From: Gemmatimonadaceae bacterium
GTDB lineage: Bacteria > Gemmatimonadota > Gemmatimonadetes > Gemmatimonadales > Gemmatimonadaceae
Assembly (NCBI GenBank): GCA_025934775.1
Contig: JAICWO010000014.1
Location: 62,001-126,000, forward strand
Length of the DNA stretch: 64,000 nt
Direction of reading: 5' to 3'
Shown one piece after another: positions 8,393 through 63,486 of this stretch. Numbering within the stretch: position 1 is the stretch's first letter; every line of letters starts with the position of its first letter. The position numbers and the translations under genes were made by a program. The notes under the pieces were generated by a model. It worked only from the letters and a program-made list of their open reading frames with translations, made no database searches and was not told where the DNA came from.

Positions 8393-8964
8393 AGCTCACG
8401 CTCCACGTAGTCGCAGATGAGATGCTCGATGCAGAGGTGCAGCTCCTGCGCGCGATCGGTGCGCGCGGTCGGAATGACCACGGAGTGATCCGCGAGCGCG
8501 CGGAGCCGGCCCCCGTCGCGCGCGCTGAACGCGAGCACGCCCACACCCGTCGCCCGCGCCGCCTCGGCGGCCTCGAGCACATTGGGCGAGTTGCCGCTCG
8601 TCGAGTGAATCACGAGCAGGTCGCCGGGCTTCGCGAGCGCTTCCACCTGACGGGCGAAGATGAAGTCGAATCCGAAATCGTTGCCGGCCGCCGTCAGGAG
8701 CGACGTGTCGGTCGTCAACGCGATGGCCGGATAGGCGCGCCGGTTGCGCATGTAGCGCACCACGTACTCGGTCGAGAGATGCTGCGCATCCGCCGCGCTG
8801 CCGCCGTTGCCGCAGAAGAAGAGCGTTCCTCCGCCCCGCACCGTGGCGCGCACCATCTCCAGCGCGCGCCCGAGGTCGGCCTGCATCCCGTCCGCCACCG
8901 CCGTCGCGAGCCGCGCGAGCTCGCGCAGGCCATCAGAGAAGTGTCGTTCAATATCCGTGGTCAC
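8389..8964 (-). CDS. gmhA: SIS-domain phosphoheptose isomerase (GmhA-like)
   Basis: 191-residue SIS-domain isomerase. The signature CGNGGSAADAQHLSTE and the later HSTSGNSPNVLEA are close to GmhA, which converts sedoheptulose 7-phosphate to D-glycero-D-manno-heptose 7-phosphate for LPS core. A DnaA-initiator-associating (DiaA) relative has the same fold, so the reaction is inferred. A heptosyltransferase-like domain is encoded at 57.6 kb, which fits a heptose pathway. Start GTG at 8964 is chosen with GGAG 9 nt upstream, keeping the gene clear of the one before it. Confidence 0.85.
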   Translation of the reverse strand: MTTDIERHFSDGLRELARLATAVADGMQADLGRALEMVRATVRGGGTLFFCGNGGSAADAQHLSTEYVVRYMRNRRAYPAIALTTDTSLLTAAGNDFGFDFIFARQVEALAKPGDLLVIHSTSGNSPNVLEAAEAARATGVGVLAFSARDGGRLRALADHSVVIPTARTDRAQELHLCIEHLICDYVEREL

Positions 8965-53349: not shown

Positions 53350-55392
53350 TCAGCGTCCGCCGCGCGCCGCGCCGGCGGCCATTTTGTTCTTGTTGCTCGA
53401 GTCGCGCTTGGCGCGGAGCTCGAAGAGTTGATCGCGAAGCTGCGCGGCGAGCTCGAAGTCCATCGCCGCGGCGGCGTCGCGCATCTGCTGATCGAGCATC
53501 TTCTCGAGCGACTCGGCGTCCACGATCGCGTAGCCGCGTGCCGGCTCGGCGACTTTCTTCGCATCGCGCTCGGAGCGCGCATCCGCCACGCGCGTGATGA
53601 ACCGCACCTGGTCGACGCTCTTGCTCACGCTGCGCGGCGTGATGCCGTGCTCCAGGTTGTGCTGCACCTGCAGCTCGCGCCGCCGTCCGGTTTCCTCGAT
53701 GCACCGCTGCATCGAGCCGGTGATGCGGTCGGCGTAAAAGATCGCGCGGCCGTGCGCATGGCGCGCCGCGCGGCCGACGGTCTGAATGAGCGAACGGTCG
53801 CTGCGGAGGAAGCCTTCCTGATCGGCATCGAGAATGGCGACGAGCGACACCTCGGGAAGATCGAGACCTTCGCGAAGCAAGTTGATGCCGACCAGCACGT
53901 CGAATTCGCCGAGCCGGAGGCCGCGCACGATCTCCATGCGCTCGATCGCGTCGATGTCCGAGTGCATGTAGCGCACACGCACGCCGACCTGCTGCAGGTA
54001 GTCCGTGAGATCTTCGGCCATGCGCTTGGTAAGCGTCGTGACGAGCACGCGCTCTCCTCTGCGTTCTCGAATTCGAATTTCATTCAGGAGATCGTCGACC
54101 TGGCCGCGCACCGGCCGGATCTCGATCTCGGGATCGACCAAGCCCGTGGGCCGGATGATCTGCTCGACGACGACGCCTTCGGAGAGCCGCAGCTCGAGAT
54201 CGCCGGGCGTCGCCGACGCGAAGATCGCGCGCGGGGTCAGCGCGAGAAACTCGTCGAACATCAGCGGCCGGTTGTCGAGCGCGCTCGGGAGCCGGAAGCC
54301 GTACTCGACGAGCGTGAGCTTGCGCGCGCGGTCGCCGTTGAACATGCCGCCGATCTGCGGGAGCGTGACGTGCGATTCGTCGACGATGACGAGGAAGTCG
54401 TCGGGGAAATAGTCGAAGAGACAGGCCGGCCGCTCGCCGGCATCGCGTCCGGACAGATGGCGCGAGTAATTCTCGATCCCGGCGCACGTCCCGATCTCGA
54501 GCATCATCTCGATGTCGAAGTTCGTGCGCGACTCGAGCCGCTGCGCCTCGAGCAGCTTGCCCGCCGCACGGAGCTCGGCCAGTCGATCGCCCAATTCGGC
54601 GCGAATGAGCTTGACCGCGCGCTCCAGGGTCGGCCGCTCGGTGACGAAGTGCTTCGCCGGATAGATGGCCGCGCGCTCGAGCGCCGCGATCGTCTCGCCG
54701 GTGAGGACGTTGATCTTGGTGATCCGCTCGATCTCGTTCCCCCACATCTCGACGCGGACGCCCTGCTCCTCGTAGGCCGGAAAGATCTCGACCGTGTCGC
54801 CGCGGACGCGGAACGTGCCGCGCTCGAAGGCGACGTCGTTCCGCGAATACTGAATGCGCACGAGCGCGCGGAGGATGTCGTCGCGCTCGATCGTCTGCCC
54901 CGTGGTGAGCGTCACCATCTGCTCCCGGTATGACACCGGGTCGCCGAGGCCGTAGATTGCCGAGACGGTGGCGACGATGATCACGTCGTCGCGTTCCATC
55001 AAGCTCGATGTCGCACGCAGGCGCAGGCGATCGATATCCTCGTTGATCGACGCGTCCTTCTCGATGTAGGTGTCGGTGGTCGGAACGTAGGCTTCCGGCT
55101 GGTAATAGTCGTAGTAGGAGATGAAGTACTCGACGGCGTCGTGCGGGAAGAAGCTCTTCAACTCCCCGTAGAGCTGCGCCGCGAGCGTTTTGTTGTGCGA
55201 GAGGACGAGCGTCGGTTTGCCGTGATTCTTGATCACGTTCGCGACCGACATCGTCTTGCCGGAGCCCGTGACGCCGAGCAGCGTCTGGAATCGGTCGCCG
55301 CGATCGAGGCCGGCCGTCAGCTCGGCGATGGCTTTGGGCTGGTCGCCGGCGGGCTGGAAGGGTGCCTGGAGATCGAATTCGGCGCGCGGCAT
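53350..55392 (-). CDS. uvrB: Excinuclease ABC subunit UvrB
   Basis: Damage-binding helicase of nucleotide excision repair, 680 residues. Seen: Walker A GVTGSGKT, the beta-hairpin [12 protein letters not shown], helicase motif [23 protein letters not shown], motif [11 protein letters not shown], and the C-terminal UVR motif ([20 protein letters not shown]) that contacts UvrC. TATATT lies 6 nt before the ATG and there is no Shine-Dalgarno, so the mRNA may be leaderless. The open frame to 55473 is rejected. Confidence 0.97.
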
Positions 55393-55398
55393 GGTGGT

Positions 55399-55406: not shown

Positions 55407-55433
55407 ATCCCTCCTCGGTTTTTGTTCGGGTCA

Positions 55434-57524
55434 ATGCTCGGAGCCCCTCCCCTGTCGTCAGACGCCGAAGCACCCGCCCGCCGCGCGACGCGCGGCAGCC
55501 TCGCCCTCTGGGTCGGTACGACCCTGGTGTTCGGATTGGCCGCCCTCGCCGTCGCGTTCGAGACCGCGATGCACTTCTCCGGCTCCGCCATCGACGGACC
55601 GTTCCAGTTGTACGACGCGATGCGGCGCCTCGCGGCCGGCTTCCATCCCGGAATCGACTTCCAATACTTTCACGGACTTGGATTACCGTACGTATATTAT
55701 TGGTTCTACAAGATGCTCGGCGGTGGGCTGCCGGCGTCGGAGTTGGCGCGCGAGCTGATCACGACGGCGCTGTTTCCGCTCGTGCTGATCGGAACGTTCC
55801 GCGCATTCGAGCGCGACTGGCGCCGCGTGCTCGCGCTCACGACGGCCGCGTTCGCGCTGAGCTTCGCGCTGCATCTCGCCGGCGTGATCTACGCGCTCAA
55901 CAGCATGATCGGGCTTCGCTCGGCGCTCCCGACGCTGACCCCGGCGGTGTGGTACGCCGTGCGATCGCGGCGAACGCGTGTCGCGCTGGTCGGCGCCATG
56001 ATGGGCGCGTCGCTGTTCGTGAGCACCGAGCAGGGACTGGCCCTCCTCGCCGCGTTTTTTCTCGCCGGAGTGCTCGTCGTCGTTCGGGCGTCCGAACGCC
56101 GGGGTCCCCTCCTGGAGTGGGTCGCGTCGCTAGTGCTGGCCGTCGTCGTGTTGTTCGCGCTGCTCGTGATCGTTGCCGGCGTCGGAGGCGCCCGCGGCGC
56201 GCTCGCCTACAATTTCCGGATCGTGCCGCGGGATCAGTACTGGTTCTTCGGTGCCCCGCCGAACCGGTTCGTCTCGTCGTGGCGGACGGGCCTCCAAATG
56301 CTGCTCGGTCTCTGGCAGGTCGGCCTGGTCATCCTCCTTGCCGTGCTCTACACCGTACGGCATTGGTGGGAATTCTGGCGCATGCCGGAATCGGACCTCG
56401 GCCGTCGTCGGCTGTCGCTCGGCCTACTCGCGCTGTACGGCCTGCTCTCGTGCGCGTCGCTCCTCGGCGTCTTCACCTTCGTCTACTCGCAGCCATGTTG
56501 GCGCGTGGTACTCGTGCTCACGCTGCTCGAGATTGCGGATTTCGCGACACGCTACGATCTCGAGCGCCAACGAACGGACTGGCTCGGCGTTCCGCGTGGA
56601 CTTGCCACGGCATCACTGCTGCTGACCGCCTATACCTTCGGGACGATTCCCGTGCTGCGTGTCGCTCTCATGGGCGGCGTGCGGCACATCGTGGTCGACC
56701 ACGGCATGCATCACGCCGGCTTCACGGTCGAGGGCATCTGGCCGGCCACGCTCGCGGATGCGCAGCGCGTCATCGACGCGCACCGGTCTCCGTCGGGCGC
56801 AACACCTCAGCTCTGGTCGACCTACTCGGGGTGGATCGAAGCGCGAAACGACATCTTCAATCCGTCGTTCGACTACATCATTCACGCGCTCGGTCCGGAC
56901 AACCGCCAGGCGTACGTCGACCGGTTCCGATCGACCCGCCCTGTGCTCGTCCAGACGGTGCGCCCGACGTACACGCAATACGAACCTTGGCTCGAGAACG
57001 CCGACTGGGCGTGGTACGACGAGCTGCTGACTGGCTACCGGCCAATCGCGGCGACCCCGTGGTCACTGTTCTGGGAGCGACGGACGACGCCCGCCCCCGA
57101 GCCTCGCCTGATCTACGCGGCCTCGCTGGGATCGAACACCAACCTCGTGCGCCTGCCAGCCGTCGGCGCGCAGAGAGGCCTCGATTCCGCGGGAAGTCCC
57201 GCCTTGCTGCTCGAGGTGGAGCTCGACTATGACGTCCACAACCCGCTTCACGCGCTTCCGATCATCGGTGCCACCCCGCGCTACTTGGTCGGAATCGTCG
57301 GTGCGTTGAGCAGCACGCCAGTATCGCTCGACCCGTGGGTGCACCGCGCTCGATTCCCACTGGTCGTCCAGGCGGGGCGGCCCCCGGTGCTCCTCTTCCA
57401 GACCTTCTCACTGCTTCCCGGCGCGTCGTGGACTCCGCGATCCATCCGGGTCTGGGTTCGGCCGCTCGATGCGGACACGAACCTCTGGTTTTACGATCTG
57501 CTCGGCCGCCTCCTGGGCAGGTGA
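55434..57524 (+). CDS. Polytopic membrane protein, GT-C glycosyltransferase-like
   Basis: 696 residues with about ten to eleven membrane helices in the first 430 residues and a soluble C-terminal part. The region [29 protein letters not shown] has the acidic loop positions seen after the first helix in GT-C enzymes that use lipid-linked sugars. No signature fixes the substrate, so glycosyltransferase is inferred. ATG at 55434 has no ribosome site; a TTG at 55422 is possible. Divergent from uvrB and 32 nt before the GT9/GT-C fusion. Confidence 0.75.
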
Positions 57525-57556
57525 TACTTCGGTCGCCCTGCAGCCGTCCTATCGAT

Positions 57557-60499
57557 ATGGACATCAGGGCGCAGCGAAAAGCGGACAACTACGTCGGCCG
57601 ACTCGGAATCGCCGTACTCCGTCCGCTCGCCATGGTGTTGGGTGCACTCCTGCGCCGCGATCACGAGCTCACCGTCGGCGACGAGGTTGTGTGGGTCAAG
57701 CTGCTCGGCGGCGGAAGTCTGCTCATCGCGATGCCGATGCTGTTGGGCTTTCGCCGCGCCCATCCAACGACGCGGATGGTGCTGATCACCACGCCGGCGG
57801 TAAAGCCGTTCGCCGAGTTGATGGGTGTCTTCGACGAATACCGACTCATCGACAACCGCGGCCTGACGCGCCTCTTCGCGACATCGCTGCTCGCACTGAT
57901 GAAGACGTTCCGAGCGGATTGTATCGTCGACCTCGAGGTGCACAGCCGCCTGACCACCGTGTTCACGACGCTGACCATGGCGCGCAACCGGGTCAGCTTC
58001 TGGTTGGAAGACATTTTCTGGCGCCGCGGTCTCGCATCGCATCTCGTCTTCTTCAATCGCGCATCGGGGAGCTTCCATTTCTACGACCGCATCGCCGAGC
58101 TGTTCGGCGTCGAGATCGCGGACCGCGAGCCCTGCCGCGAGTCGATGCTGGCCGCGTGCCGCATCGCCGAAGACGTCCCGAGCGTTCACGGGCAGGTGTG
58201 TGTCGGGTTCGCATGCTCCGACCTCGCGCACGAGCGGATGCTCACGACCGCGCAGTGGATCGCGGTGTTTCGCGCCAATCTTCGCCCTGAGCACCACCGC
58301 TTCCTTCTGCTTGGCGGGGCCGCCGACCGAGGGACGGCCGACGAGCTCGTGGCCGCGCTTCGGCCGCACTTTCCGGATCTCGCATTTCGGAATTGTTGCG
58401 GCGAGACGTCGCTCGCCGGCTCGACCGCTCTTCTCGCGGAGTCGCCCGAGTTCTGGGGGATCGATTCCGGCCTCCTGCACATCGCGCGTACCCTGGGGCT
58501 GCGCACGGTCTCCTACTGGGGTCCGACGGATCCGTCCACGCTGCTGCGCGACACGTGGCAGCTGGACGAGACGACGCACTACCGAAAGATCGCGTGCTCG
58601 CCGTGCGTTCACACGAGCGAGCAAGCGCCTTGCCACGGTGACAATCGTTGTATTCAAGGACTCTTCAATCCCATGTCATCTCCGATCAACTGGACGCCAA
58701 TGGAGCACCCGCCCGCGCGCGAGGGACATCGCGAACACGTCCGCCGGCTGTTCGCCGCCGCGTGGCGCAACGTCGGGTTTCTGTGCGTGGCCGGCGTGCT
58801 GCTGTATTGCGTGGTCCATGCGTTCGATCCGCCGCGCCTGAACTGGGGCGATTCGGCATCGGACTACAACGTGATGACATCCGGACGCAATTTTCAGAAG
58901 TACGGATTCTTGAAACTCCGGTTCACGCCGTTCGTGCTCGACCCCGCGGTGATGACGCCGGCCGACGGCTGGGCGATGTACACGCATTATCCGCAGCTTC
59001 CCGATCTCATGAACGGGGTGCTGCGCACGGCATTCGGCCTCTCGACGCTCGTGCAGTTCCGGTTCGTCGCGCTGGGCTTCTCGTTCGTCGCGTTGTTCTT
59101 CGTGTACCAATTGCTTCGCGCGTATTGGAGTCGCCAGACCGCGCAGATGGCGCTCGCGCTGTGGGTCACGAATCCGTTGTGGATTCAACATGCCGACTAC
59201 CTGCATCATGCGCCGTACGCAGCGTTCTTCGGATTTGGCGGGTTGTATTTCCTCGTGCGATATCTGCGCGGCGACGGACGGAAGCGATTCTTCCTCGCCT
59301 CGGCGGTGTTCGTGTTTTTCACGTTCCTCGCATCATACGATTTTTGGATCTTCGAGCCGTTGCTCATCGCGACGGTGACATTCGCGCACTATCGACGCGT
59401 GAGCTGGCCGGCGGTCCGCGTATTGGGGATCCTCGCCGGATGCACCCTCCTCGCGTTGTGCCTCAAGTGGTCGACGAACATCTGGGCGCTCGGCGGCGTG
59501 CACGGGTGGCTGGCCGATCTCAGGTATCAGATGGTGGAGCGCGGGACGAACGAGCTGGTCAAGGTGGACTACCAGCAAGGCATCTGGGCGACGCTCACCG
59601 GGCGCGTCGAGCGATTCTTCACGCTCGCCCTCTTCCCGATCACCCTGTTTTGGGCAGTACTGCCATTCATCCGCGCCCGAGTCGATCATCTCCCGGAGAG
59701 CGTGAAGCGAATTGCCAATCCGCTACCGGTGCTCATCGCCGCGCTGCCATTTCTGATGCTCTTCGTCGAGTTGTGGGTCGGCCAGTACTATCCCACGCTG
59801 CTGATCCTTCCGTTCTACGCCATTGGCTCGGCCGGCGTCATCGCCATCCTGCTCGAGCTCGAACTTCCGGTGGCGAGATTCGCTGGTGCCGCGCTTTTCG
59901 CCGCCGTCCTGTTCAGTTCGATCGATGAGGACGCGACATTCAAGAAGGCATTCTTCGATCGCAGCGCGATCCAATCATTGAAGGCCGAGCTCGACCGCGT
60001 CGCGCAACCGGGGCAGCAGATTCTGACCGATCACGTCTTCGACGCGGCTTACCGCTATTACTTCGATCACAACACCGTCGCATTGATCTTGAATCCGCCG
60101 CCGCGGTTCCCGACTGCGATCCAGTACTACACCGATGCACGCCGGCCCCATATCGCGCCCGCGAGCGGCGCGCTGTACGTACAGCACAAGCACCTGTCCG
60201 AAGAGATGTACGACAAGGGCTATTACTACATCCTCGGGCGGACGGGGTTTTGGCAGCCGTGGGCGAATCCCGAGCGCTACCATCAGGCGCTCGACGGGTA
60301 CATCCGGCACGCGGATTCGGCGCTGACGAGAGTGGTGATCGCGGCTGGCGGCCAAAAAATCGCCGACACCGATTTCTACACGCTCTGGCGCATCCCGCCT
60401 GAGATCGGCGGCGTGGTGATCAGCCCGACCAGACCGTCCGGCGGATTAGGCGTCGCGCCGGCGAAACACGAAACCCATCTCGCCGAAGTTAAACCGTAG
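57557..60499 (+). CDS. GT9 heptosyltransferase-like / GT-C membrane glycosyltransferase fusion
   Basis: 980 residues in one frame. Residues 1-372 look like a GT9 heptosyltransferase: VVWVKLLGGGSLLIAMP, FWGIDSGLLHIARTLGL, WGPTDPSTLL, and the PCVHTSEQAPCHGDNRC cysteine block. From about 394 to 840 there are roughly nine to ten membrane helices with GDSASDYNV and YTHYPQLPDLMN, as in PMT/ArnT-type GT-C enzymes; a soluble tail ends the protein. An internal ATG at 58673 (residue 373) marks the domain border, but no stop precedes it. The start is ATG 57557. Expected role: LPS or surface-glycan assembly. Confidence 0.85.
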   Translation: MDIRAQRKADNYVGRLGIAVLRPLAMVLGALLRRDHELTVGDEVVWVKLLGGGSLLIAMPMLLGFRRAHPTTRMVLITTPAVKPFAELMGVFDEYRLIDNRGLTRLFATSLLALMKTFRADCIVDLEVHSRLTTVFTTLTMARNRVSFWLEDIFWRRGLASHLVFFNRASGSFHFYDRIAELFGVEIADREPCRESMLAACRIAEDVPSVHGQVCVGFACSDLAHERMLTTAQWIAVFRANLRPEHHRFLLLGGAADRGTADELVAALRPHFPDLAFRNCCGETSLAGSTALLAESPEFWGIDSGLLHIARTLGLRTVSYWGPTDPSTLLRDTWQLDETTHYRKIACSPCVHTSEQAPCHGDNRCIQGLFNPMSSPINWTPMEHPPAREGHREHVRRLFAAAWRNVGFLCVAGVLLYCVVHAFDPPRLNWGDSASDYNVMTSGRNFQKYGFLKLRFTPFVLDPAVMTPADGWAMYTHYPQLPDLMNGVLRTAFGLSTLVQFRFVALGFSFVALFFVYQLLRAYWSRQTAQMALALWVTNPLWIQHADYLHHAPYAAFFGFGGLYFLVRYLRGDGRKRFFLASAVFVFFTFLASYDFWIFEPLLIATVTFAHYRRVSWPAVRVLGILAGCTLLALCLKWSTNIWALGGVHGWLADLRYQMVERGTNELVKVDYQQGIWATLTGRVERFFTLALFPITLFWAVLPFIRARVDHLPESVKRIANPLPVLIAALPFLMLFVELWVGQYYPTLLILPFYAIGSAGVIAILLELELPVARFAGAALFAAVLFSSIDEDATFKKAFFDRSAIQSLKAELDRVAQPGQQILTDHVFDAAYRYYFDHNTVALILNPPPRFPTAIQYYTDARRPHIAPASGALYVQHKHLSEEMYDKGYYYILGRTGFWQPWANPERYHQALDGYIRHADSALTRVVIAAGGQKIADTDFYTLWRIPPEIGGVVISPTRPSGGLGVAPAKHETHLAEVKP

Positions 60500-61264
60500 C
60501 GCGAGCGAGAAGCCGCCGAGGAATTTCTTCACCGACGGCGGCGCGCCGAACTTGTGCAGGAAGTGCGCGACCACCATCTGCGGCGATACGAACTTGAGCG
60601 GATAGAACTCTCGCTCGGCCACGAAGCCGCGGCGCCGCATGAAGTCCAGCACACCGGCGCGCGACCACTGAAATTGGTGATCCGGCAGCTTGTGCGGCCA
60701 AAGCCGCCCGAGCAGCCGCTGCGAGAACGAGTCGCCGCGCGGCAGCACCATGAGAATTTGCGAATTCGGCGCGCTGTTCCGAAGCATCCAATCGAGAAAC
60801 GCCGCCGGGTCGGGGATGTGCTCGAAGCTGTCCTGAAACACCCAGAGATCGATCGGCGCGTCGAGTCGCGGCGGAAGCCGAAACACCGACAGCAGCTCCG
60901 CGCGCACGCCGGACACGCGCACGCGTTCGATCGCGGCGTCGTTCGCCTCGAGACCCACGACGGACGCCGCGCGCTCGGCCAGCACGGGGAGGCACGAGCC
61001 TCCGCCAAAGCCGACCTCGCAGGCGCGCTTCCCCTCCAGCGCGATGCCGCCCCGCCGCAGCCAGTCGCGCAGCGTCCGAGCCTTCAGCGCACCAACGCGC
61101 GGGTCGTAGTGCCCGCGCTGCTCGGGATAGCCCGCATCGTACGGGACGATCTCGCCGAGCGAGTCGACGTCCCAGTAGGATCCGCACGTTGCGCAGACGC
61201 GGCGAAAGGCGCGCGAGCGAGCGTTCGCGTCGGGGTGCTCGCAGAGGAAGGCCGGTGTCGTCAT
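60446..61264 (-). CDS. SAM-dependent methyltransferase with N-terminal zinc-ribbon-like cysteines
   Basis: 272 residues. The N-terminal CEHPDANARSRAFRRVCATCG has three cysteines and a histidine that could hold a zinc. Then a class I methyltransferase fold: motif I EVGFGGGS at 83-90, LEANDAAIERV, and DSFEHIPDPAAF. It resembles methyltransferases acting on sugars or lipid-linked products. Its 3' end overlaps the convergent GT fusion gene by 54 bp. ATG 61264 lies 32 nt after the Rel stop, so it shares the rel transcript. Confidence 0.85.
   Translation of the reverse strand: MTTPAFLCEHPDANARSRAFRRVCATCGSYWDVDSLGEIVPYDAGYPEQRGHYDPRVGALKARTLRDWLRRGGIALEGKRACEVGFGGGSCLPVLAERAASVVGLEANDAAIERVRVSGVRAELLSVFRLPPRLDAPIDLWVFQDSFEHIPDPAAFLDWMLRNSAPNSQILMVLPRGDSFSQRLLGRLWPHKLPDHQFQWSRAGVLDFMRRRGFVAEREFYPLKFVSPQMVVAHFLHKFGAPPSVKKFLGGFSLALRFNFGEMGFVFRRRDA

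Positions 61265-61296: not shown

Positions 61297-63486
<2,190 letters not shown>

Follow-up and report, generated by a model that had tools for sequence, protein, structure and literature searches.

A GT9–GT-C glycosyltransferase gene fusion, most likely a lineage-specific variant, within one genus of the Gemmatimonadaceae

Introduction

Can two glycosyltransferases of different classes be encoded as a single protein chain in a member of the Gemmatimonadaceae, and if so, what might joining them achieve? The window analysed here (the whole stretch of 64,000 nucleotides, from a 4.88 Mb draft genome of 47 contigs) was the subject of an earlier note, which claimed that a GT9 domain and a GT-C domain share one uninterrupted frame. 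That claim was borne out by the open frame of 980 codons and by the same fusion in a second species of the genus (genome G118).

Results

The reading frame

57557..60499, plus strand: fused GT9–GT-C gene, 980 codons and a stop (open frame; same fusion in G118)

Reading-frame analysis of the window found these 980 codons to be without interruption, with 28 and 5 stops in the other two plus-strand frames across the gene. Codon-position GC followed a coding pattern almost throughout, with third-position values of about 0.7–0.9; at residues 361-405 the pattern was weaker yet kept (0.64/0.53/0.69). The first methionine (57557) is retained in five of five aligned relatives, so that a 5′ extension of the gene to the GTG at 57335 is unneeded. 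The G118 protein is fused in one frame of 977 aa, with 64% identity over residues 1-963, and comparison of the two fused genes gave a pS of 0.56–0.58 and a pN of 0.22–0.25, both domains being under purifying selection. Between 58640 and 58820 there is no stop in any plus-strand frame and the junction contains no homopolymers of four or more, so that one miscalled base could not turn the gene back into a tidy pair. A stop or frameshift near 58660-58673, raised in the earlier note as a finding that would separate the two genes, has no support in the sequence examined. Very probably the fusion is genuine and its product is made as a single chain.

The GT9 half

57557..58699, plus strand: GT9 (GT-B) domain, residues 1-381, with C-terminal cysteine motif CSPCVHT..PC.GDNRCI and tail NWTP (PF01075; Foldseek)
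57716..57718, plus strand: Ser54, in the column of the WaaC catalytic base Asp13, GGGS instead of GxGD (alignment with GT9 paralogues)
58463..58465, plus strand: Asp303, equivalent of WaaC Asp261 in the nucleotide-sugar site (invariant in 10 of 10 aligned GT9 proteins)

The first half matched PF01075 at 43–45 bits, against a gathering cut-off of 22. The full-length AlphaFold model was poor (pLDDT 46), confident in part, and was used for this half only; its top nine Foldseek matches were all GT9 structures (3tov, 1psw, 2h1h, 2gt1, 6dfe, 2h1f). WaaC (HepI), WaaF/RfaF (HepII) and the Veillonella GT9 protein 3tov resemble this half in GT-B fold, in PF01075 and in the Asp261 equivalent, and the C-terminal cysteine motif resembles that of part of the GT9 family. 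The fused protein differs from these in having serine for the catalytic Asp13 and in its fused membrane domain. Serine occupies the Asp13 column in five of five family members, and aspartate in five of five other GT9 paralogues from the same genome and from others. The position of WaaC Lys192 is presumably Arg227 (counted by hand from the following Trp).

The earlier note had named this domain a heptosyltransferase. The NCBIfam heptosyltransferase models gave 15.7–32 bits and none reached its cut-off (134.6–569); because these scores fall so far short the name is unjustified, and the catalytic Asp13 is replaced (Ser54) in the whole subfamily. As a separate observation, ADP-heptose genes may be present in the genome: a gmhA-like gene lies at 8401-8853 of the window on the minus strand (179.7 bits, cut-off 209), and the window is immediately preceded by an rfaE-like kinase gene (G000:C19:61015-61938; 343 bits, cut-off 345).

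The GxGS form of GT9 was also found in Azospirillum and Acidibrevibacterium, outside the phylum, and therefore marks a wider GT9 branch, not a local defect. The plasmid protein of Azospirillum sp. B510 (WP_012978653.1) is 38.6% identical over residues 1-373 and also has GGGS, but its gene stands alone and is followed by a GMC oxidoreductase gene. The plasmid-borne Azospirillum GxGS gene (L053:8001-9185) adjoins that oxidoreductase and belongs to a glycan island that also encodes a DUF2142 protein, a GT2, a GT4 and a methyltransferase.

In E. coli WaaC, the substitutions D13A, D261A and K192A lower activity 4688-, 2027- and 926-fold, respectively (PMC5713226), and the activity of the GT9 domain is uncertain because the catalytic base of characterised members is missing. 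A serine at the position where D13A is so costly would suit a catalytically dead domain that serves the GT-C enzyme in binding or as a scaffold, a reading that we consider unlikely given the strong conservation of the other active-site and cysteine motifs, the low pN/pS, and the existence in another phylum of unfused GxGS members that stand alone.

The GT-C half

58739..60499, plus strand: GT-C domain, residues 395-980, with TM1 at about 405-423, outer loop 1 containing D432/D436, further membrane helices and a C-terminal alpha/beta domain at about 818-947 (alignment; structure model)

The model of the second half was built from nine sequences (mean pLDDT 64, pTM 0.58). Its top 25 Foldseek matches were all GT-C enzymes or parts of them (STT3, AglB, ArnT, DPY19, AftA, PglB, PMT, ALG9, Emb), from E 3e-4 upwards and with 10–15% sequence identity in the structural alignments. 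The fold search supports a predicted GT-C fold for this half. Pfam PMT_2 did not match the GT-C half of the window protein; that of G118 scored 26.7 bits against a cut-off of 26.1, and 25.4 when scanned as the full-length protein. A family profile of this half gave weak matches in four other genomes (E 2e-4 to 9e-4), and the two that were checked are PMT_2 proteins. Profile comparison with three PMT_2-type proteins was in register and not significant (probability 3.9%).

GT-C enzymes carry an acidic motif after TM1 (DxD/DD, E allowed; PMC6801728). Here D424, D432 and D436 are invariant after TM1, with D432 and D436 spaced Dx3D, not the classical DxD/DD spacing. ArnT/PMT_2, STT3/PglB/AglB and DPY19 resemble this half in polytopic fold, in acidic residues in outer loop 1 and in the C-terminal alpha/beta domain, whereas the fused protein is very remote from them in sequence, lies below the PMT_2 cut-off and has an N-terminal GT9 domain.

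The junction

58673..58675, plus strand: Met373, internal-start candidate of the earlier note, within the GT9 tail and not conserved in G118 (alignments)
58700..58741, plus strand: junction, comprising Met382 (ATG in both fused genes), a 12-residue linker and V395 (GTC) (alignment with split genes)

Aligned to the ends of separate GT9 proteins, the GT9 tail reaches about ten residues beyond NWTP. The GT9 C-terminal segment ends at about residue 385-390 and the GT-C part starts at about V395, placing the true junction at residues ~383-395. The earlier note had put the boundary at residue 372/373, with Met373 as a possible start of the GT-C protein. Its domain order holds and its position does not: Met373 sits in a conserved tail that separate GT9 proteins also have, and it is absent from the G118 fused protein. 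Met382, common to both fused proteins, appears to be the better candidate for an internal start.

The separate GT-C genes start with ATG in G117 and with GTG in G116, two other genomes of the genus. The alignment column of this start codon holds V395 (GTC) in the window and CCG in fused G118, and the original GT-C start codon is gone from both fused genes. The two fused proteins have NWTPME in common and 12 residues each from Met382 to the old start column, which favours one fusion event for both. The linker is the least conserved stretch of the fused protein (31% identity between the window and G118), as expected for a tether, and it is Arg-rich ahead of TM1, fitting an N-in topology.

Translation might restart at Met382, so that the GT-C enzyme would mainly be a separate protein and the long frame would matter little. 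This reading would account for the ATG at Met382, which the fused genes both have and the split genes lack, and start-stop coupling is tight in the relatives; but the full chain must be made, since no stop separates the domains, nothing better than a weak GGA precedes Met382, and the old GT-C start has been lost from each fused gene. We judge restart as the main route to be decidedly unlikely, although internal initiation at Met382 could additionally yield a separate GT-C protein.

The island between uvrB and relA

53350..55395, minus strand: uvrB, left island border (gene-order comparison)
55422..57524, plus strand: GTC1, upstream polytopic membrane protein, at most 700 aa long and a conserved member of the island (resembles GT-C by eye alone)
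60446..61264, minus strand: SAM methyltransferase (Methyltransf_23), same island (family match; gene-order comparison)
61297..63486, minus strand: relA/spoT-type gene, right island border (gene-order comparison)

The order uvrB, GTC1, GT9, GTC2 (the GT-C half), methyltransferase, relA is the same in the window, G116, G117 and G118. The fused gene and the convergent methyltransferase gene overlap tail to tail by 54 bp at their 3′ ends (60446-60499). The island (55422-61264) is absent from two of the six genomes of the genus (G114, G115), in which uvrB stands next to relA without the four genes that separate them elsewhere. Between species the island glycosyltransferase proteins are 45–69% identical, compared with 88–91% for the flanking uvrB and relA, and this divergence would fit a variable surface-glycan function.

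GTC1 shares 45–54% identity with the orthologues from other species of the genus. It had no Pfam or NCBIfam match and its profile comparison with GTC2 was not significant; its resemblance to GT-C proteins is by eye, and it was rejected as a proven GT-C.

Fused and split relatives

In searches of 179 genomes from the family and 288 from the order, only its own genus gave near-full matches to the fused protein. The earlier note had counted the presence of only separate proteins in close relatives against a fusion; one of the three island-bearing relatives, G118, is also fused. In G118 the fused gene is immediately followed by another GT-C2 copy, unfused (L023:6317-8119), whose start lies in a GTGA overlap with the stop of the fused gene. 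The other two have separate genes at the same site. In G117 the GT9 protein ends in WTPIAYPKRRTKVS and the GT-C protein starts with MKSFGSWLWRNLGF a few bases later, and in G116 the GT9 protein ends in PVTQ, with a 4-nt GTGA overlap leading into the GT-C start VKRVASAVWDNIGF. In another genus (G154, L025:6963-9610), a 43% identical GT9 gene passes through a GTGA overlap into a PMT_2/DUF2079-type GT-C gene, which had no match in the GTC2 profile search.

The coupling of this GT9 branch to a different GT-C in G154 suggests a repeated GT9/GT-C partnership, and the GTGA stop-start overlap of G116 and G154 is a plausible precursor state of the fusion. Because G117, G116 and G154 show split pairs that are closely spaced or overlapping, the coupled pair is the usual arrangement, from which part of one genus appears to have derived the fusion. 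The GTC2 gene tree groups the window with G118 (90/88), the uvrB and relA tree groups it with G117 (90/96), and in the GT9 gene tree its placement was not settled; the trees conflict and do not settle whether there was a single fusion event.

Further long frames with GT9 matches were rejected as fusions. A 953-aa frame in G143 is a spurious long frame in GC-rich DNA, and among the matches listed elsewhere in the phylum, five in frames of 824–1060 aa have spurious 5′ extensions and no polytopic membrane domain. Most relatives do without the fusion, hence it is not essential to function. The fusion is most likely real, common to two species and narrow in distribution, a lineage-specific variant.

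A more specific relationship between the halves is conceivable, in which the polyprenyl-phosphate sugar used by the GT-C is made by its own GxGS GT9 partner, so that donor synthase and periplasmic transferase share one chain. The GT2/GT-C pairs Dpm1/PMT and ArnC/ArnT offer an analogy. Serine replaces Asp13 in the whole subfamily while the Asp261 equivalent is kept, and by our reasoning transfer to a phosphate would not require a catalytic base, in line with this loss; moreover, G154 has this type of GT9 in start-stop coupling with a different, PMT_2-type GT-C, and in the window it is fused to GTC2. However, the Azospirillum relative (39% identity) lacks a GT-C as direct neighbour and we know of no GT9 enzyme that glycosylates polyprenyl phosphate, so we hold this reading to be quite improbable.

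That an assembly or sequencing error joined two separate genes, as a draft of 47 contigs and the split pair in some relatives might suggest, is so improbable that it was rejected, since the independent, divergent (64% identical) G118 is fused in frame with the same linker length and the junction is free of homopolymers, with no stop close by in any of the frames.

Discussion

The fusion itself, its presence in a second species, the split genes in others, the gene order and the fold class of the halves can be read from the sequences, and what follows from them for function is put conditionally. We consider it rather probable that the gene arose in this lineage when two neighbouring, co-translated glycosyltransferase genes of an envelope-glycan island became fused, and that it serves one pathway across the membrane. 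The product would be one membrane protein, in which a cytoplasmic GT9 (GT-B) domain is followed by a short basic linker and the first helix of the GT-C domain. Because the GT9 domain precedes the Arg-rich linker and TM1, it would face the cytoplasm, and the GT-C active site would face the periplasm. At the cytoplasmic face a lipid-linked intermediate would be the substrate of the GT9 domain; outside, the GT-C domain would add a later sugar of the same pathway from a polyprenyl-phosphate donor. The fusion would thereby fix the stoichiometry and the location of both steps. That the protein unites two sequential steps of one lipid-linked glycan pathway is, in our judgement, about an even call, and cross-membrane coupling by fusion is plausible.

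The two-domain Ppm1 of M. tuberculosis, a polyprenyl-phosphate-mannose synthase fusion, follows the same principle, with a cytoplasm-facing glycosyltransferase fused to a polytopic envelope-assembly enzyme, but it joins a GT2 to an Lnt-type acyltransferase, not a GT9 to a GT-C. In the literature searched, a search that did not extend to domain-architecture databases, no report of a GT9–GT-C fusion was found, which hints that the combination may be new; both parts are of known kinds.

Gene fusions tell which enzymes work together, and a GT9 tied to a membrane GT-C points to a common glycan pathway in Gemmatimonadota, a phylum in which little is known about envelope sugars. Fused and split orthologues within one genus provide a ready comparison. 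The missing catalytic base marks out this GT9 branch and, if the GT9 domain did supply the donor for its GT-C partner, this would place a GT9 (GT-B) enzyme in a role known for GT2 enzymes.
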